Below are positions 629 through 44,116 of a stretch of DNA of 49,725 nt, piece after piece. The notes under the pieces are model-generated. The model was not told the DNA's origin. It saw nothing but the letters and a program-made list of their open reading frames with translations, and did not search any database. This DNA comes from Candidatus Elulimicrobium sp. (GTDB taxonomy: Bacteria; Patescibacteriota; Minisyncoccia; Phycocordibacterales; UBA918), in NCBI GenBank assembly GCA_022730015.1, contig DZBU01000005.1, positions 1 to 49,725 on the forward strand, read 5' to 3'. How positions within the stretch are numbered: the first letter of the stretch is position 1; every line of letters begins with the position of its first letter. Both the position numbers and the translations under genes were made by a program.

Positions 629-3600
629 GTGAAATTTGTGACGACAATGATGCTGGTCGTTTTTTGGTGTGGATTAACTGTTCCGTCTTTTGCTCATGCC
701 GAAACAAAGGATTCAAATTTATTTTGTTCGGTTTTAGGTTGGGTGGTCAAGCCAATTGGTTTTTGTAAGGAAGAAATTATTCCAGAAATTTCTCCAAACA
801 CTGAAAATTCTGTAACAAACCCAGTTGTCCAAGGACCAACTGTACCAACTCCTTTTTCTTCTACTGATGAGATATTGGAAGTTAGACCAATCGAACTAGG
901 AAATACTCTAGAATCCGATTCAGTGCCAGTAACGATCGTAAAGGAATACGTTACAGTGAATGGAAGCGGTGTTTCAGAAGCATATGTTGATCAGCGCATC
1001 AGAGAGCTTTTGATCTACATAAATTCCTTTCCTCGTACAACAGACCTCTTGGCGATGGATAGAAATCCATCAGAACTTGTTGATGCGAGTGATTATGTGA
1101 CGAGAGAGTATATCTATAAGACCTTAGACAAAGTCGATAACCAGATCGACAATGCGATCGATAGTCTTAAAGATAGTCTCACGTCTGAGCCTATCTTTAC
1201 CAGCCCGACACTGGTTGATGCGATACTAAATGGCACTACTTACGTAAACGGCAGGTTGGGATTGGGGACCTCAAGTCCTGCTGACCTTCTTGCGGTTGAG
1301 GGCGCTGTCTACCTAGCAGAGACCAACCCAACTCAAGTTGATGATCGACTATATAATTTTGGTGGAGATCTGTATTGGAATGGTTCAGTCGTGACGAGTG
1401 CCGCGCTCGGTAATTGGTCAGCGAGCGGCAGCGATGTGTTTAGACTGGCGGGCAATGTTGGTATCGGCACCACCTCACCGTACGCCAAGCTTTCCGTGGT
1501 GGGTAATGTAGTAGCTGATTCATACATGGCACTTTCTACGACTTCTACTTCCACCTTTATGGCGGGGGTGGATCTCGGTGCTGGGAATGGATATTTCATT
1601 GGAGGTTATAATGTTCTTTCCGGAAGTATAGCTGGCGGTGTTGTTGGATTTGATAATACTAATAGCTCTGGTGGAGTTGCAATAGGAATGTCAAACAACA
1701 GTACTGGTTTTTCGGGGACCGCTATAGGAATGAGTAATATAACGAGCAGTACAATTGCAACTGCGATTGGTTTTGGTAATGATGCAAGTAATTTCTTTGC
1801 GACGGCTATCGGATACAGTAACATCGCAAGTGCATTTGGTTCAGTTGCGATTGGTTCAGGTGTAGAAAATAGTATCGCAGATTCCCTCATGCTCGGTCCT
1901 TCCGACGCAGCAAAGTTGACCATTCTTTCAAGCGGCAATGTTGGTATTGGCACTACGACACCAGATAGCGAACTTACCGTCGCTGGTGACCTTTACCTCA
2001 CCGGAGCTTTTAAGGACTCTACCAATGCTGCAGGTACCCTTGGTCAAATACTCAGTTCTACGGGTGCGGCAACGGTCTGGACCTCTACCTCTAGTCTTGG
2101 TCTTGGCAATGGCACCTTCCTCGGACTTTCTGATACACCATCCTCATATACTGCCAACCGTCTCATCTTTACCAATAGTGGTGGTACAGCGTTGACCGAT
2201 TCCGCCAACCTTGTGTTTGATGGCACAAATTTTGGTATTGGTAGCAGCACACCAGGTAACAGATTTTCGGTTGGTGGCAACTCTTATCTCGTTGGTGGCG
2301 GCAGTAGCTCCGATGTCGCTCTTACAGTTAAAAGTGGTTATGGTTTTGATTCTGCCAACCTGCAAGACTGGCGAAAATATGATGGAACTCTCGTGGCTTC
2401 AGTCTTAGGTACTGGAGGATTAGCAGTCAATCGTTCATCTACTGGTGGATACTCGCACTTCGGCCCCGATACAACTAATCTAACTGTTAGCGACGCTATT
2501 GATTCATTGGTTGTAGTAAAAAACGATACCTTAGGTGTTGGTACATACAGAGCACTAACTGCTGCAGTCGAGTTTTCGGCCCCAATAGATTCTGCAGGCA
2601 GTCACTTTGGCTTAAACGGCTTTGCTTATTTACAGAGTAATAACAATTTAACGAGTTCTTTGGCTACTGGAGCTGGCGGTCTTTCTGGTGGTCGTTACGC
2701 AATACGTATCGGCAGCGCCGTGACTGCAACACCCTTGATTTCTCTAGCGACTGGTGCCTCATCTGGATTTACGGATTCAAGTAGTGCTGGTGTAGCTAAT
2801 ATTACAGACCTTGCTTTATTTAATGCCGAATCGACTACTGTATATAGTTCAAACATTACCAATCAAAGTGGCTTACGAGTCATGAATGCTTCTGATTTAG
2901 GAGGAAGCATCACCAATCAATACGGAGTCTACGTAGACAATCTGACATCTGGTACAAATAATTACTCTATTTATGCAGGTACTGCCCGGTCATACTTCGG
3001 TGGCAATGTTGGCATCGGTACCACATCACCGTACGCCAAGCTTTCTGTTGTTGGTCAAACAGTCGCAGACTACTTTACTGCAGCAAATACAAATGCAACT
3101 AGTACTTTTTATGGTGATCTCGCAGTCGGTAGTACGGGTGTGACAGGTGCACGTTTAACAATTAATAAAACAAGTGTCTCAACAGCTGCTGGCAGTGAGT
3201 TTGGTATTAGCAATACGATAAGTGATACTGGTGTCACGACAAGTGGTACAGACAGTATTTTTGGCCTGAGTAATGTCATTACGCATGGTGGTGCAACAGG
3301 AGGAACTAGTGATACGTATGGTGTATACAACAGCATGTCCGTGGACGATGTCGTGTCTGGTGCATCAAACGCATATGGAATATATACACTCGTAAATCAG
3401 GGTCCTAATGCAACTATTCCTGACAATTCTTTTGGTGCATACGCGAATCTCGTTGGTACAAATGCATATGGTTCAAGGCTGTACTTTAATAATGCGGCTG
3501 GTGTTGGTACTGGTTACGGAATGCGTCTTACCCCCAGCGCTCTTACTGGTACTGGCATGAGTGCTGTCTATGGAATGTATGTTGATAATTTCACTAATGC

Positions 3601-6600
3601 GACAAACGTTACCGGTCTCTATGTTGCTGACCAAGGCACTAGTGCAACACACTACGGTGTTTATACTGACGGTAGTACGAAATCATACTTCGGTGGCAAT
3701 GTTGGCATCGGTACCACATCACCGTACGCCAAGCTGTCGGTGGTCGGTAGTGTGGTTGCTGATTCATATACGGCACTTTCTACCACAGCAACGTCTACTT
3801 TTACCGCGGGAGTGAATGTGGCCATGGGAATTGGATACTTCATCGGAGGTTCAAAGGTGCTTAATCAAGACGCTTCAAATAATTTCACGGCTGGTATACA
3901 AAATACTGTCAGTAGTGCTAATACTTCTGTAGCAGTCGGCAGTTACAATACCATATCTTCGATTCTTGCAACGGCAATCGGATTTGCGAACACAGCAAAT
4001 AATATTAATGCAACGGCAATTGGAAACCAGAATATCGCTTCTAGCTCTTCTGCCACTGCACTTGGTTTTCAAAATATTGCTTCTGCAGCAGGAGCTGTCG
4101 CCGTCGGTAATGGTGTCAGCAACTCAATCGCCAGCTCGCTAATGATCGGTCCGTCTAACAGTTCAAAGTTGACCATTCTTTCAAGTGGCAATGTCGGTAT
4201 TGGTACAAGTTCACCATGGGCAAAATTGGCTGTGCAAGATGCTTATGGTTCGCAGGCGCCCCTGTTTGATGTTGCGTCAACAACTTCTTCTGGTTTTGCA
4301 ACTAGTTCAATTTTCTCGGTAGCTGCTTCTGGTGAGGTGAAGATCAAAGGTGTAAATTCTACTTTTGCTTTACTTGGTCCAAATCTCTTTACTATCGCAT
4401 CTTCGTCGGGTACTAGCATGGTGTCGGTAAGTCCGTTTGGTAAAGTTAATATTAATCGTGGTGATATTACTTACGCATCAGAATTTGGCGCAGACAAACA
4501 AAGCAGTTTGAACGTAAAAAGCACAAGAACCAGTGGCTCTGGTTTGGGCGGATACTATGACACACCAAATACCAATATCTCCTCAGTCTTCACGTATAAC
4601 CCGACAGCTGATGACAGCGAGTACTATGCTGGCAATTTCTCCAGACTCATCTTTGGTGGAGTGGGAGACAGTATTTTCGGAAGTGTTTCAGGTTCGGTCA
4701 ACAATGTTAGGAAGACAAATACCGGAACGGCGGCAGAGGTCAATGGAGTGGTTTCTTATGTAGATATAGACGCTGGAATAACCAATAGTGCTTTCGGTAT
4801 CAATAGTCTGGTCTATAATGACAGTATTGTTGCAAATAGCGTACAGAATGCTTACGGAATTTACAGCTCAATTGACGGCATTGCTGCATTCAACGATGTT
4901 ATCACCAATGCATATGGTCTTTACACTAATTTTGATCTTACAAACATCACCAACGCATACGCCATATATACGAATGGTTCAGCAAAATCATACTTCGGTG
5001 GCAATGTCGGTATCGGCACCACTTCACCGTATGCCGAGCTCTCGGTGGTTGGAGATGTCGTCGCTGATTCATACATTGCTCTTTCTACTACTTCTACCTC
5101 TACCTTTGCGGCAGGAGTAAATGTGGGTTCAGGCAGTGGTTACTTTATGAACGAAAAACTAGCACTTAGTGGTGACATTGGTTCAGATACTGTCATTGGT
5201 TTTGGAAATACTGTCAACGTGAGTGGTCTCGCGATCGGTAACAGCAACACAGCATCAGCTTTAAGTAGTGTTGCTGTTGGTCTAAGTAATAATGCTTCAT
5301 CACTGGCTGCTGTGGCTATGGGATACACGAACATAGCAAGTAATTTATTTACCAGTGCAGTCGGGTATGTAAACAGTGCCACGTCATCTGGCGCTACCGC
5401 TCTCGGCTATATCAATAATGCTGGAGGATCTAATTCTGTAGCGATTGGAAATAGTAATAATGCATATGCTGCGGGATCAATCGCGATCGGAAGGTCAATC
5501 ACCAACACTATTACAGATTCTCTTCAAATTGGACCATCTAACACTGCAAAGCTCACTATTCTTTCAACTGGTAATTATGGTATCGGTACTACCTCACCAA
5601 ACGCAAAATTAAATATCTATAGTAACGTTACAACAAATGGTCAAATCGGTGGATTGAGTACGGATCTCGTATCGTCATCACTTGCTGGCGGTGCTGTCTA
5701 TGGAAACAAAACTACTTTATCTAGTATTGGTGGAGTTCCTCCAGACACATCGGTGTATCTTAATCACACTGCTTCAACGGTAAGTTGTTTTGGTTGCGGA
5801 TTAGTAAAATTGTATGGAAACTACGTTTCGTTTGCTAATGATAGCTCCAACAGTCAAAGGTACGGTTTTTATGCTGATTCTGCTGGTTCTGGATTTTCTA
5901 CAAAATCATTTTTTGCAAACCTAGATGATAATAGTGGTGCTGTCGGGTACACCGCTAGTTCAACTGCCAGTTTCTCGGGTGATTATTTGAACTTCACAAA
6001 AGGCAACAGTACCATACTGACAGTTGAAGGTGGCGGTAATGTTGGTATTGGTACATCTACACCAGCCAAAGCCTTGCAGGTTATCGGTGACATCCGTACC
6101 GGTACCACGGGAACAAACGGTTGTATTGAAAACTTTGCTGGTACAGCGCTCGCCGGAACCTGTTCATCAGATAAAACACTGAAGAAAGACATTACACCAA
6201 TCGGGAATATTCTTTCAAAACTTGCCCAGATCACCCCGTCTACATTTTATTGGAATGATCTAGCTGCTAGTACGCTACAAAATTCTACCGAGACGATCAA
6301 CTATGGCCTGGTTGCTCAAGATGTTGCTCCAGTATTTCCTGATATGGTCTCAGTGACCAGTAGTGGCTATTTAGGGGTCAATTACTCCATGCTCCCGATT
6401 CTTACCTTACAGGGTCTGCTTGATATGAATGCAATGGTAGAGAGCCTGTCGTCAACTACAGCACCACTCACTGATGCTTCAGGAGAAAAGACTTTTGCTG
6501 GTAAATTCTTTGACCGTTTGACTGGGTGGTTTGCCGATAGAGCAAACGGAATCCAGGATCTCTTTGCGAATCGAGTACGAACCAAGACGCTCTGTATTAG

Positions 6601-6958
6601 TGACGAAACTGAAGGCGAAACATGTATCACAAAAGATCAGCTTGATAAGCTATTGCTAGAGGTTACCAAGGAAACTGCAAGTGGCAACCAGTCAGTGTCT
6701 GGGTCAGCTAGTGTTCCAACTGAATCCGTCGAAACACAAGTAGTAGCATCATCTACTGACACTGTCACTGCCACCAGTACAGTTTCTGAGGAGCTGCTAG
6801 CTGAAGGTAGTGTTGAAGTAGTTGCTCCAGATCAGACAGAAGGTGCTAATGAAGAAGGGGTGATCACTGAGCCAGCACTTTCGGAAGTGGTGCAGGTTGA
6901 GGCTGAGGTGTTGCCAATTGTCGAACCAGCTGCTGAAGATCCTAGTTTGATCGAGTAG
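629..6958 (+). CDS. Giant secreted/surface repeat protein with YadA-like head repeats and a peptidase S74 (endosialidase chaperone) domain
   Basis: 2,109-aa ORF with a signal-peptide-like N-terminus; repeated GNVGIGTTSPYAKLSVVG modules; repeated ATAIGxxNxAS head motifs; SSDKTLKKDITPIGNILSKLAQITPSTFYWND is a typical S74 start. An alternative GTG start lies at 638. Confidence 0.9.
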   Translation: MKFVTTMMLVVFWCGLTVPSFAHAETKDSNLFCSVLGWVVKPIGFCKEEIIPEISPNTENSVTNPVVQGPTVPTPFSSTDEILEVRPIELGNTLESDSVPVTIVKEYVTVNGSGVSEAYVDQRIRELLIYINSFPRTTDLLAMDRNPSELVDASDYVTREYIYKTLDKVDNQIDNAIDSLKDSLTSEPIFTSPTLVDAILNGTTYVNGRLGLGTSSPADLLAVEGAVYLAETNPTQVDDRLYNFGGDLYWNGSVVTSAALGNWSASGSDVFRLAGNVGIGTTSPYAKLSVVGNVVADSYMALSTTSTSTFMAGVDLGAGNGYFIGGYNVLSGSIAGGVVGFDNTNSSGGVAIGMSNNSTGFSGTAIGMSNITSSTIATAIGFGNDASNFFATAIGYSNIASAFGSVAIGSGVENSIADSLMLGPSDAAKLTILSSGNVGIGTTTPDSELTVAGDLYLTGAFKDSTNAAGTLGQILSSTGAATVWTSTSSLGLGNGTFLGLSDTPSSYTANRLIFTNSGGTALTDSANLVFDGTNFGIGSSTPGNRFSVGGNSYLVGGGSSSDVALTVKSGYGFDSANLQDWRKYDGTLVASVLGTGGLAVNRSSTGGYSHFGPDTTNLTVSDAIDSLVVVKNDTLGVGTYRALTAAVEFSAPIDSAGSHFGLNGFAYLQSNNNLTSSLATGAGGLSGGRYAIRIGSAVTATPLISLATGASSGFTDSSSAGVANITDLALFNAESTTVYSSNITNQSGLRVMNASDLGGSITNQYGVYVDNLTSGTNNYSIYAGTARSYFGGNVGIGTTSPYAKLSVVGQTVADYFTAANTNATSTFYGDLAVGSTGVTGARLTINKTSVSTAAGSEFGISNTISDTGVTTSGTDSIFGLSNVITHGGATGGTSDTYGVYNSMSVDDVVSGASNAYGIYTLVNQGPNATIPDNSFGAYANLVGTNAYGSRLYFNNAAGVGTGYGMRLTPSALTGTGMSAVYGMYVDNFTNATNVTGLYVADQGTSATHYGVYTDGSTKSYFGGNVGIGTTSPYAKLSVVGSVVADSYTALSTTATSTFTAGVNVAMGIGYFIGGSKVLNQDASNNFTAGIQNTVSSANTSVAVGSYNTISSILATAIGFANTANNINATAIGNQNIASSSSATALGFQNIASAAGAVAVGNGVSNSIASSLMIGPSNSSKLTILSSGNVGIGTSSPWAKLAVQDAYGSQAPLFDVASTTSSGFATSSIFSVAASGEVKIKGVNSTFALLGPNLFTIASSSGTSMVSVSPFGKVNINRGDITYASEFGADKQSSLNVKSTRTSGSGLGGYYDTPNTNISSVFTYNPTADDSEYYAGNFSRLIFGGVGDSIFGSVSGSVNNVRKTNTGTAAEVNGVVSYVDIDAGITNSAFGINSLVYNDSIVANSVQNAYGIYSSIDGIAAFNDVITNAYGLYTNFDLTNITNAYAIYTNGSAKSYFGGNVGIGTTSPYAELSVVGDVVADSYIALSTTSTSTFAAGVNVGSGSGYFMNEKLALSGDIGSDTVIGFGNTVNVSGLAIGNSNTASALSSVAVGLSNNASSLAAVAMGYTNIASNLFTSAVGYVNSATSSGATALGYINNAGGSNSVAIGNSNNAYAAGSIAIGRSITNTITDSLQIGPSNTAKLTILSTGNYGIGTTSPNAKLNIYSNVTTNGQIGGLSTDLVSSSLAGGAVYGNKTTLSSIGGVPPDTSVYLNHTASTVSCFGCGLVKLYGNYVSFANDSSNSQRYGFYADSAGSGFSTKSFFANLDDNSGAVGYTASSTASFSGDYLNFTKGNSTILTVEGGGNVGIGTSTPAKALQVIGDIRTGTTGTNGCIENFAGTALAGTCSSDKTLKKDITPIGNILSKLAQITPSTFYWNDLAASTLQNSTETINYGLVAQDVAPVFPDMVSVTSSGYLGVNYSMLPILTLQGLLDMNAMVESLSSTTAPLTDASGEKTFAGKFFDRLTGWFADRANGIQDLFANRVRTKTLCISDETEGETCITKDQLDKLLLEVTKETASGNQSVSGSASVPTESVETQVVASSTDTVTATSTVSEELLAEGSVEVVAPDQTEGANEEGVITEPALSEVVQVEAEVLPIVEPAAEDPSLIE
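1441..5610 (+). repeat. Degenerate internal repeats: four GNVGIGTTSPYA(K/E)LSVVG modules, three followed by YadA-like head blocks ending GPSxxxKLTILS
   Basis: Module copies near 1450, 3000, 3700 and 4998; head-block ends near 1890-1930, 4145-4190 and 5530-5575, visible in both DNA and translation. Confidence 0.85.
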
Positions 6959-29606: not shown

Positions 29607-31106
29607 TTAAAACTCATCAAGATATGAAATGTCAGCTCCTAAGCTGGTGAGTCGTTCTACCAATTTCTCATAGCCACGATTGATGCTGTAAATGTTGCGA
29701 AGGACAGATTCACCCTCAGCCCCGAGCATGCCGATGAGCAGGATAGTTGCTGGGCGAAGTGCGGGTGGGCAAATGAGCTCAGCAGCCCGCAGTTTGGTCG
29801 GACCAGTAATGAAAATACGATGAGGATCAGCAAGTACCGTGTCCGCGCCAAGTTTATCAAGCTCAGTGAAGTAAATGGCACGTTTTTCATATACCCAATC
29901 GTGAATAAGCGTTTGACCGGTTGCTTGAGTGGCGATGACTGCAAAAAAGGGGAGATTATCAATGTTGAGCCCAGGATACACAGAAGGATGAATCTTCTCG
30001 TGCAAGGCGATCAGTTTTGATGGTTTTGTAGTAATGTCGACAAGTTTAGTTTTACTGTTGTGGCTATAGTAAGGTTTTGATTTTTTATACTGGAATCCCA
30101 TTTTTTCTAGTTTCAGTAGCTCCAACTCCAAAAATTCAATCGGACAGCGGGTAATCGTAATACTTGAGTTTGTCACCAACGCTGTCGCTAAAAAGAACAT
30201 ACTGTCAGTGGGATCTTCAGACAGGGTGTATTCGATGTTCTGATCTATTTTTGCAAGTCCAGTAACTGTCAGTGTTGTGGTGCCAAAACCTTCGATTGAT
30301 ACGCCTAGCTGCTGTAAAAAGATGCAAACCTCCTGCACCATGTAGTTAGCGGAAGCATACTTAATGATCGTGGTCTCTGGTCGACCAGCCGCTGCAAATA
30401 AGGCATTTTCTGTTACCGTATCACCTGACTCATACAAAATGATCTCGCTCGGCTTTTTTGGCTCTACGGTCACTTCAAAGGAGTTGCTTGTGGTGTTAAT
30501 TGCTACTCCAAAATGTTCAAGTGCATAAAAGTGGGGCTTGACCGTTCGACTGCCTAATTTGCAGCCGCCAGATTGTGGAAGTGAGAATGATCGTAACTGA
30601 TGAATGAGCGGTCCGATGAACATGACGATGCTGCGGGTGCGTTCGGCCGCTGTCTTGTCGATTTTTGAAAGGTCGAACTTTTTTGGGGGTGTAATAACTA
30701 TGGTGGTGTCATGCCAATCCACTTTTACACCGATACTTTCAAGTACTTCAATAATGCGATGAACTTCTTCAATGCGAGGCATTCGGTGTAGTGTGGTGGT
30801 ACCTTTATTTAACAAAGCAGCACAAAGTAGTCCAACTGCTCCATTTTTTGAAGTATTTGTCTCAATTGTACCGTGAAGTTTTTTACCACCTCGTATGCGG
30901 ATATTAACTGTACCAGGGGAGAGAGTAATCAGGTTCTTGCCGAGTGCTCTCCCAATCCGTTTCAACATATCAGCGCTTACGTTTTGTTTACCTGATTCGA
31001 TCCGTGCAACCGCACTCTGGGTGGTCTTCAGTTTTTTGGCTAAGTCAGTTTGGGTTAGTCCTAGGGTTTCGCGAACGTCAGCGATACGAGTTCCAATATG
31101 TTGCAT
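29607..31106 (-). CDS. murA: N-terminal XRE-type HTH fused to UDP-N-acetylglucosamine 1-carboxyvinyltransferase
   Basis: HTH: IADVRETLGLTQTDLAKKLKTTQSAVARIESGKQNVSADMLKRIGRALGK; MurA: NTSKNGAVGLLCAALL, QSGGCKLGSRTVKPH, YPGLNIDNLPF, LRPATILLIGMLGAEGES. ATG 31106 preferred over the 31178 start. Confidence 0.93.
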   Translation of the reverse strand: MQHIGTRIADVRETLGLTQTDLAKKLKTTQSAVARIESGKQNVSADMLKRIGRALGKNLITLSPGTVNIRIRGGKKLHGTIETNTSKNGAVGLLCAALLNKGTTTLHRMPRIEEVHRIIEVLESIGVKVDWHDTTIVITPPKKFDLSKIDKTAAERTRSIVMFIGPLIHQLRSFSLPQSGGCKLGSRTVKPHFYALEHFGVAINTTSNSFEVTVEPKKPSEIILYESGDTVTENALFAAAGRPETTIIKYASANYMVQEVCIFLQQLGVSIEGFGTTTLTVTGLAKIDQNIEYTLSEDPTDSMFFLATALVTNSSITITRCPIEFLELELLKLEKMGFQYKKSKPYYSHNSKTKLVDITTKPSKLIALHEKIHPSVYPGLNIDNLPFFAVIATQATGQTLIHDWVYEKRAIYFTELDKLGADTVLADPHRIFITGPTKLRAAELICPPALRPATILLIGMLGAEGESVLRNIYSINRGYEKLVERLTSLGADISYLDEF

Positions 31107-31116
31107 ACTGAATGAG

Positions 31117-31134
31117 TATAGCATAGGTGCTATA
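31117..31134. promoter_or_regulatory. Palindrome overlapping the HTH-murA -10 region
   Basis: TATAGCA-tagg-TGCTATA, perfect 7-bp arms. Confidence 0.55.
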
Positions 31135-31181
31135 TCCCAATATTCTAATGTCTGTGGATGTTGAAATTGTGATGTCATGAT

Positions 31182-31226: not shown

Positions 31227-32240
31227 ATGTTTGGAAGTTGGACACCAAAAGTGGGTATTGACCTAGGTACAACCAGTATTCTTGTCTTTGTGCCAGGTCA
31301 GGGGATCGTCTTGAACGAGCCGTCAGTTGTGGCTGTGTCTGACGACAATAAAGTACTTGCAGTAGGTACTGAAGCAAAACTCATGATCGGCCGCACTCCC
31401 GAGAATATTCGTGCGTACCGACCGATGAAAGATGGGGTGATCGCTGATTACCGAGTGACCGAAGCAATGTTGCGGTACTTCTTGCGTAAATCAATGAGTA
31501 AATACAATTTACTTCGCCCGGACGTTATGGTTTCAGTGCCGGCAGGAGTTACCTCGACTGAGCGACGTGCAGTGGTAGAAGCGACAATAAAAGCTGGTGC
31601 CCGTAACGCGTTTGTTGTTAAGGAACCGATCTTGGCGGCAATTGGAGCTGGAGTCCCGATCTACGAACCACAAGGGCACATGATCGTTGATATTGGCGGT
31701 GGCACCATCGACGTAGCAGTGATCTCGCTTGGTGGCATTGTGGCTGCTAACTCAGTGAAATGTGCTGGTAATCGTATCGATGCAGCCATCATTGATTATG
31801 TAAAAAAGACCCGTAATCTCTCTATTGGTGAAAAGACCGCTGAGGAAATTAAAATCACCGTTGGTTCAGCGCTCCCGCTTGAAGAAGAGTTGGTAATGGA
31901 TATCAAGGGTCGCGACATGCTTTCTGGGTTGCCTCGAACCACGGAGATCAAAAGTAATGAAGTAGTAAAGGCGATCGGAAAAGAATTACGTGAGATGGTA
32001 AAGGCGATCAAAGACGTGTTCCAAGAGACTCCTCCCGAACTGGCTGCTGACATTATTGATGGCGGTATCATCATGACTGGCGGTACTTCACAATTACGAA
32101 ATTTTCCAGAACTTATTCGTCGACGTACTGGTGTGAAAGCAAAAGTAGCCGAGCAAGCACTTTTTTGTGTTGCTAAGGGAACTGGTATTGCTCTCGAGCA
32201 TCTCGATGTATATAAACGCGCAGTGTTAGCTAAGAAGTAG
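31227..32240 (+). CDS. mreB: MreB/Mrl rod-shape actin homologue (paralog 1)
   Basis: VGIDLGTTSILVFV...IVDIGGGTIDVAVISLGGIV...GGIIMTGGTSQLRN. Confidence 0.95.
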   Translation: MFGSWTPKVGIDLGTTSILVFVPGQGIVLNEPSVVAVSDDNKVLAVGTEAKLMIGRTPENIRAYRPMKDGVIADYRVTEAMLRYFLRKSMSKYNLLRPDVMVSVPAGVTSTERRAVVEATIKAGARNAFVVKEPILAAIGAGVPIYEPQGHMIVDIGGGTIDVAVISLGGIVAANSVKCAGNRIDAAIIDYVKKTRNLSIGEKTAEEIKITVGSALPLEEELVMDIKGRDMLSGLPRTTEIKSNEVVKAIGKELREMVKAIKDVFQETPPELAADIIDGGIIMTGGTSQLRNFPELIRRRTGVKAKVAEQALFCVAKGTGIALEHLDVYKRAVLAKK

Positions 32241-43036: not shown

Positions 43037-44116
43037 ATGGCAGAAATGAACGTATTTACGCGACAATTAAACGCGCTTCTTTCGACTGTATCGACGGACA
43101 TTGCTATCGACCTCGGTACAGCAAATACGCTAGTGTATGTAAAAGGAAAAGGAATTGTACTTAATGAACCAACGATCGTTGCAATAAACAAAAAGACGGG
43201 TCAGCTGGTGGCGGTCGGCAACGAAGCCAAAGCCATGCAAGGTCGAACCCCTACCCATATTGATGTGGTGCGCCCGCTGGTGGATGGCGTTATTTCAGAT
43301 TTTGAAGTAGCTGAAGAAATGTTGGCATATCTCATCGGTAGAGTGCGAAGTGATATGCGTTCGTTAATTGCTCCTCGGATGTTGATTGGAGTACCTTCAG
43401 GAATTACGAACGTAGAAATGCGAGCGGCACGTGATGCTGCCAAAAACGCGGGCGCGCGTGATGTTTTTTTGATTGAAGAACCAGTGGCTGCAGCAATCGG
43501 AGCCAAACTCCCAATCCAAAAAGCAGTCGGAAGCATGATCGTTGATATCGGTGGCGGTACGACTGATATTGCTGTTCTTTCACTTAACGGATTGGTTGTA
43601 TCACGGAATCTACGCGTCGCAGGAGATCATCTCAATATGTCGATCATGTCGTACATACGAGATCAATTTAAAGTACATGTTGGAGAAAAAACAGCGGAAG
43701 ATGCCAAGATTGCGCTTGCTTCTATCTCACATACTGAAGCAGGAAAAGAATTGGTGGCACGAGGTCGTGATGTGGTTACCGGCTTGCCGCGTGAAGTGGT
43801 GATTACAGATGCTGATGTGCGAGATGCAGTCTCGAGTCAGGTCGATACGATCGTTGAAACAGTGAAGAGTGTTCTTGAGACAACTCCTCCTGAGGTGTTG
43901 GCAGATATTATGCAGCGAGGCATTCATCTTTCTGGTGGTGGCGCACTTATTCCTGGTCTCGCCTCACTGCTAGAACACGCGTTACAGGTGCCAGTCATTG
44001 TCGTGCCTGACCCTTTGCGAGCAGTGATCCGTGGAGCAGGGATAGTTATAGAGAATCTTGATGCTTATCAGGAAATATTGATCGATCATGAAGGTGCGAT
44101 CGCGACACAACTCTAA
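43037..44116 (+). CDS. mreB: MreB rod-shape actin homologue (paralog 2)
   Basis: IAIDLGTANTLVYVKGKGIVLNEP; VDIGGGTTDIAVLSLNG; GIHLSGGGALIPGL. Confidence 0.97.
   Translation: MAEMNVFTRQLNALLSTVSTDIAIDLGTANTLVYVKGKGIVLNEPTIVAINKKTGQLVAVGNEAKAMQGRTPTHIDVVRPLVDGVISDFEVAEEMLAYLIGRVRSDMRSLIAPRMLIGVPSGITNVEMRAARDAAKNAGARDVFLIEEPVAAAIGAKLPIQKAVGSMIVDIGGGTTDIAVLSLNGLVVSRNLRVAGDHLNMSIMSYIRDQFKVHVGEKTAEDAKIALASISHTEAGKELVARGRDVVTGLPREVVITDADVRDAVSSQVDTIVETVKSVLETTPPEVLADIMQRGIHLSGGGALIPGLASLLEHALQVPVIVVPDPLRAVIRGAGIVIENLDAYQEILIDHEGAIATQL

Follow-up and report, generated by a model that had tools for sequence, protein, structure and literature searches.

The DNA-binding domain of PutA has a ribbon-helix-helix fold, whereas BirA, the biotin-protein ligase/repressor, binds its palindromic operator as a dimer. 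In well-studied bacteria MurA is known to be controlled mainly at the protein level, by proteolysis and by feedback from UDP-MurNAc. Of the described systems closest to the locus considered here, E. coli PutA is a single-target trigger enzyme that acts in the putA-putP spacer, and BirA is also counted among the trigger enzymes (PMC8249747). In the open-access literature searched we found no earlier description of an HTH-MurA or of MurA as a trigger enzyme; as far as that literature goes, trigger enzymes are a known kind to which MurA appears to be a new addition.

Here we describe a gene for such a fusion in a 49,725-nucleotide stretch of DNA from Candidatus Elulimicrobium sp. (the window). 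We propose, with a probability of about 0.8, that its product is an autoregulating trigger enzyme, being both the only MurA of the cell and the regulator of its own gene, via a palindrome that lies over the -10 element.

Results

The HTH-MurA gene (29607-31106, minus strand) encodes 499 residues plus a stop codon and lies in a longer reading frame (29607-31178, minus strand) that is open throughout. Homologue alignments begin at the conserved ATG at 31106 (MQHIGTRIADVRE), and the 24 codons 5' of it are unconserved and contain the operator/-10 region, so this ATG is taken as the true start. It is also the start given in the earlier note.

That one reading frame carries both an HTH and a MurA domain, as had been claimed from the letters of the window, is supported by profile searches. 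Residues 8-59 (30930-31085, minus strand) match the Pfam HTH_3 profile (E=1.3e-13, 51.2 bits versus a cut-off of 23), identifying a Cro/CI (XRE)-type HTH with the recognition helix KTTQSAVARIE and Thr29 as specificity residue, and the same protein matches Pfam EPSP_synthase (E=8.8e-43). Profiles, residues and a structural model assign the region at 29622-30905 (minus strand) to MurA (UDP-GlcNAc enolpyruvyl transferase), in a divergent Patescibacteria branch; with NCBIfam, the MurA subfamily PRK09369 is matched at 2.8e-90, over its cut-off, and the murA equivalog TIGR01072 at 290 bits, under its cut-off of 392.7. The AlphaFold model (74 homologues as input; pLDDT 88.6, pTM 0.84) comprises an N-terminal HTH of five helices and a MurA fold, between which residues 61-64 form a poorly defined linker, and its top matches on structure comparison are all MurA (TMt about 0.9). 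The HTH, joined to the MurA domain by a short linker, is a genuine fusion and not an assembly artefact, since it is kept in many other families and in nearly all same-genus genomes with a MurA match, the exceptions being one genome that lacks the HTH (G016) and one fragmented match.

A genome search revealed the HTH-MurA gene as the one EPSP-synthase/MurA-family gene of the source genome. The survey across the candidate phyla radiation for which the earlier note had asked reveals that the architecture is widespread in Patescibacteria, being present in about 54 of the 381 genomes sampled (as counted from the search table), with a related MurA without HTH in about 20; the other genomes show either a conventional MurA or no match in that table, and a wide score gap separates the groups. 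Named records with the fusion include Kaiser-, Nomura-, Taylor-, Campbell-, Harrison-, Kerfeld- and Doudnabacteria. One same-genus genome (G022, 99% complete) has murB and mraY, with no MurA-family gene found, reflecting either an assembly gap or loss.

In a tree of 160 MurA domains the divergent MurA forms a long, fully supported branch, the earliest members of which (families f99 and f81) are without HTH. The history of the HTH on this tree requires at least nine changes, six of them forced by well-supported branches; one reading is of a single gain followed by eight losses. In G016 (locus L022, the same as L104) the same MurA persists minus its HTH; neither a frameshift nor any other origin of the missing domain was found, the sequence upstream being the antisense strand of mreB and the genome having no further HTH match. 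Natural variants of this kind show that the enzyme can do without the HTH, and the repeated loss of the domain indicates that the regulation is dispensable too.

The whole branch retains Lys22, Asn23, Arg91, Cys115, Arg120, Asp305, Arg331, Arg371 and Arg397 (E. coli numbering), and the window protein keeps K87-N88, C182, R187, D383 and R451 in its own numbering. It thus has the loop Cys/Asp115, Lys22, Asn23, Asp305 and Arg397 by which a MurA may be recognized; it lacks Asp369 and the canonical uridine-binding residues. The earlier note was right that the Cys, Lys-Asn, Asp and Arg are retained, but overlooked the loss of Asp369 and the altered uridine loop. Compared with the E. coli and conventional Patescibacteria enzymes, branch members with and without the HTH alike have CPPALRP where Asp369-Leu-Arg (DLR) is expected, and residues of the uridine/diphosphate loops are replaced branch-wide, again irrespective of the HTH (P121T, D123R/K, L124P, S162G and V163D, with D123K being the variant in the window protein). 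E188N is a further branch-wide substitution, present whether or not there is an HTH.

Asp369 interacts with ligand in E. coli MurA (PMC4790336, PMC4062475), and its absence, together with the replaced loop residues and the TIGR01072 score under cut-off, would fit a MurA domain that does not work as a UDP-GlcNAc transferase, in which case the protein would be a regulator whose enzyme domain has degenerated or changed, or would act on another nucleotide-sugar. We consider this improbable, though the best placed of the alternatives, given the branch-wide retention of the residues listed above and the observation that nearly all genomes of the branch have no MurA but the divergent one, which is accompanied by murB (74/80 genomes checked) and an mraY-like gene (65/67). 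With the downstream Mur pathway present and no second MurA, the genomic context is that of a MurA, and on these grounds a remodelled but working MurA is the likeliest reading of the sequences. In the genome of the window, which is 90.6% complete, murB was found and mraY was not. The remodelling of the active site may bring with it altered ligand handling or an altered fosfomycin response.

Two variations within the family may be recorded here. One basal HTH-less genome has a second, conventional-like EPSP-synthase/MurA-family gene (G302:C6:76152-77390) beside its divergent MurA, and two Kaiserbacteria-type MurA (L077 and L087) carry, at one and the same position in the MurA domain, in-frame insertions of ~35 residues that resemble each other (ARRG...RGVL..TTS..DGTRNKA) and look like a translated repeat element.

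The upstream regions of genes with the HTH have in common an 18-bp palindrome, TATA[G/T]CATATATG[C/A]TATA, which occurs in two forms, TATAGCATATATGCTATA or TATATCATATATGATATA, and is likely the operator of HTH-MurA, described here for the first time. It normally overlaps the -10 box of murA. In the window the predicted operator is TATAGCATAGGTGCTATA at 31117-31134 (a site without strand), an imperfect copy with a central GG instead of TA and two mismatches to TATAGCATATATGCTATA; 0.01 such sites are expected in the window, and it is the sole site in the 775 kb genome at up to three mismatches. Counting within 250 bp upstream, with a pattern derived from the same regions in which it was then counted, the operator was found at 102/121 HTH-bearing genes with up to two mismatches. 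Allowing three, it was found at 114 of the 121 (about seven thus being without a clear site), at none of 11 genes that have lost the HTH, at one of 11 basal HTH-less genes (a weak match) and at none of 13 conventional ones. A consensus-free dyad score of at least 8 within 150 bp upstream, reached by 2% of shuffles, was reached by 63/121 genes with the HTH versus 0/35 without.

On the tree, HTH differences and operator presence agree in all six independent cases on well-supported branches (p=0.03), and the HTH-less Kaiserbacteria locus L104 has retained the -10 half (TATATGCTATACT) with the other half-site gone. A control pattern, the operator read backwards, gave no matches in 64 genomes, and only about four off-target sites were found in 1.16 Mb of loci. 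That the palindrome tracks the HTH is comparative evidence for a specific operator in the target promoter, as expected for a trigger enzyme, and DNA binding by HTH-MurA is strongly supported by these sequence patterns. In five loci of lineage f55 (L038, L043, L044, L048 and L112) two tandem operator copies lie about 60-70 bp apart upstream of HTH-murA, an arrangement that suggests cooperative binding.

The recognition helix varies together with the operator. Where operator pair 5/14 is G:C, the residue following Thr28 is Thr (52 of 53 genes), and where the pair is T:A that residue is Ser (43 of 44); among the HTH columns it has the highest mutual information with that pair. Its equivalent in the 434 repressor, Thr27, contacts the operator. 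Matched changes of residue and operator fall on the same branches at L127 and at L124/L120/L102, whereas L095 is discordant. As the pattern rests on four to five changes, of which just two are independent and lie on well-supported branches, we regard the coevolution as supporting evidence.

The right half of the operator is overlapped by the extended -10 element of murA, TGCTATACT (31115-31123, minus strand), 8 bp downstream of which is the ATG, so the murA leader in the window would be very short or absent; a scan for -35/-10 consensus elements found no promoter for murA. Since each half of the palindrome reads TG[C/A]TATA, an extended -10 core, and the neighbouring gene is mostly divergent, the palindrome could be a symmetric bidirectional promoter with two overlapping -10 elements, in which the regulator is uninvolved and the HTH has some other role. 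Such pseudo-symmetric promoters are common in bacteria (PMC12825309). Several observations nevertheless make this explanation a poor one, if only slightly less probable than that of a non-working enzyme: genes with co-directional neighbours also have the site (21 genes, mean 7.7 of 9 pairs), the T at -10 position 6 is present in 91/114 homologues for the murA side but in only 40/114 for the other strand, HTH-less genes with a divergent mreB (L104 and L121) are without the site, and the site is both unique in the genome at the stringency used and coevolves with the recognition helix.

Equally, the HTH could be a dimerization or stability module that does not bind DNA, or a relic of the fusion, as its loss on several occasions with retention of MurA might suggest. 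This is very unlikely, because Thr28, Gln30, Ser31, Ala34 and Arg35 of the recognition helix are each at least 90% conserved (74 proteins) and because the operator vanishes along with the HTH. Least credible of all is that a different transcription factor binds the palindrome, its correlation with the HTH being coincidental, since the site of such a factor would need to appear and disappear together with the HTH each time independently, and to covary with a residue of the HTH that is fused to MurA.

With respect to targets, the palindrome typically lies 8-11 bp from the start codon of murA (in the lineages with mreB or glyA as neighbour, the median from operator end to murA start is 11 bp), and this, with its uniqueness in the genome, points to murA itself as the chief target. 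Where murB is the divergent neighbour the operator is mostly 8 bp before the murB start and 10 to 123 bp from murA, and by virtue of that same spacing murB is probably co-regulated in this lineage. One genome (G200) has a separate operator copy in front of murB, which is the one clear site among 40 murB upstream stretches (two of them cut by contig ends), nothing passing elsewhere; a wider regulon including murB was therefore rejected, murB being a probable target only where adjacent or in the G200 lineage.

As the earlier note observed, the gene in the window faces an mreB gene (31227-32240, plus strand; MreB_Mbl, 1.7e-129), to the start of which the operator is 92 bp distant, and mreB is a possible second target. 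The extension of this to a regulon of cell-shape functions is not supported by the gene neighbourhoods: mreB is the divergent neighbour in Kaiserbacteria and several related lineages, its place being taken elsewhere by murB, glyA, parB or other genes, and orientation does not track the HTH. Neighbours are divergent in 96/118 genes with the HTH versus 26/34 without, and divergent orientation was consequently rejected as a sign of regulation.

Other perfect or one-mismatch sites, before a PF00144 gene and AI-2E transporter, TGT, ZIP and RNase H genes, are not claimed as targets, no recurrence having been seen. Genome G031 has two perfect operators: one (locus L223, near 2018) precedes a PF00144 (beta-lactamase/PBP-like) gene, behind which lies a murC-like gene, and the other (L224) is upstream of a ZIP transporter gene. 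The window itself has two mreB paralogues, that at 31227-32240 standing alone and divergent from HTH-murA, and another at 43037-44116 followed by mreC and a gene for a PBP2-type transpeptidase. It also encodes, at 629-6958, a repetitive protein of 2109 residues with many GIGTTSPYAKLSVVG-type repeats, whose C terminus looks like an S74-type chaperone/peptidase motif and which is probably a giant surface fibre.

Discussion

Comparison of sequences supports the fusion, its status as sole MurA, the operator, the dependence of the operator on the HTH and its coevolution with the recognition helix. A metabolic-enzyme domain, judged by its catalytic residues and by its being the only MurA, is thus combined with a DNA-binding domain in one polypeptide, as in trigger enzymes. 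The earlier suggestion of a trigger-enzyme-like link between MurA and transcription now has good support, in the form of an operator whose presence follows that of the HTH; the target is chiefly the murA gene itself.

As to mechanism, we infer dimerization, repression as the sign of the control, retained catalysis and control by ligand. The two HTH domains of a dimer would bind the 18-bp palindrome overlapping the murA -10 box, and the bound HTH-MurA would block RNA polymerase, such that MurA limits its own synthesis. The MurA domain moves between open and closed states with its ligand. By analogy with PutA and BirA, its occupation by UDP-GlcNAc, PEP or UDP-MurNAc, as substrate or product, may change the geometry of the dimer so as to tune repression to precursor demand, and could either relieve or strengthen it. 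Whether this extends to the entire Patescibacteria branch, with a catalytically remodelled MurA that responds to its ligand and acts from a dedicated operator to repress its own promoter, and in one lineage murB as well, we regard as an evenly balanced proposition.

Were the proposal correct, a one-gene feedback circuit would operate at the committed step of peptidoglycan synthesis, and the trigger-enzyme concept would gain a new enzyme class. In this large group of bacteria, which are tiny and mostly uncultured, MurA, the first enzyme of cell-wall building, appears to act as transcription factor itself; its binding site is predicted, and the genomes provide a natural gain/loss experiment. The regulator, operator and specificity residue are directly testable, and the phylum is one in which genetic tools are scarce and few regulators have been studied.

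PutA, which serves proline utilization, likewise joins an enzyme to a DNA-binding domain and acts as a repressor at a single site in the spacer separating its gene from a divergent gene of the same pathway (PMC8249747), but its enzyme is a proline dehydrogenase and its control by ligand is demonstrated, whereas that of HTH-MurA is proposed here. BirA likewise has an N-terminal HTH on a housekeeping enzyme, although its HTH is winged, its enzyme domain is unrelated, its target is the multi-gene biotin operon and its co-repressor is biotinoyl-AMP. Conventional MurA (E. coli b3189 and the Patescibacteria enzymes of about 420-445 residues) shares with HTH-MurA the fold (TMt about 0.9), the reaction family and most catalytic residues, but lacks both HTH and operator, is about 30% identical, differs in the uridine loop and has Asp369. 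Cro/CI regulators of the 434/HipB type share the HTH fold and the TTQ recognition helix (434 repressor 1per match, 1.7e-4); these, however, are stand-alone phage or toxin-antitoxin regulators, whereas the HTH described here is fused to a cell-wall enzyme.
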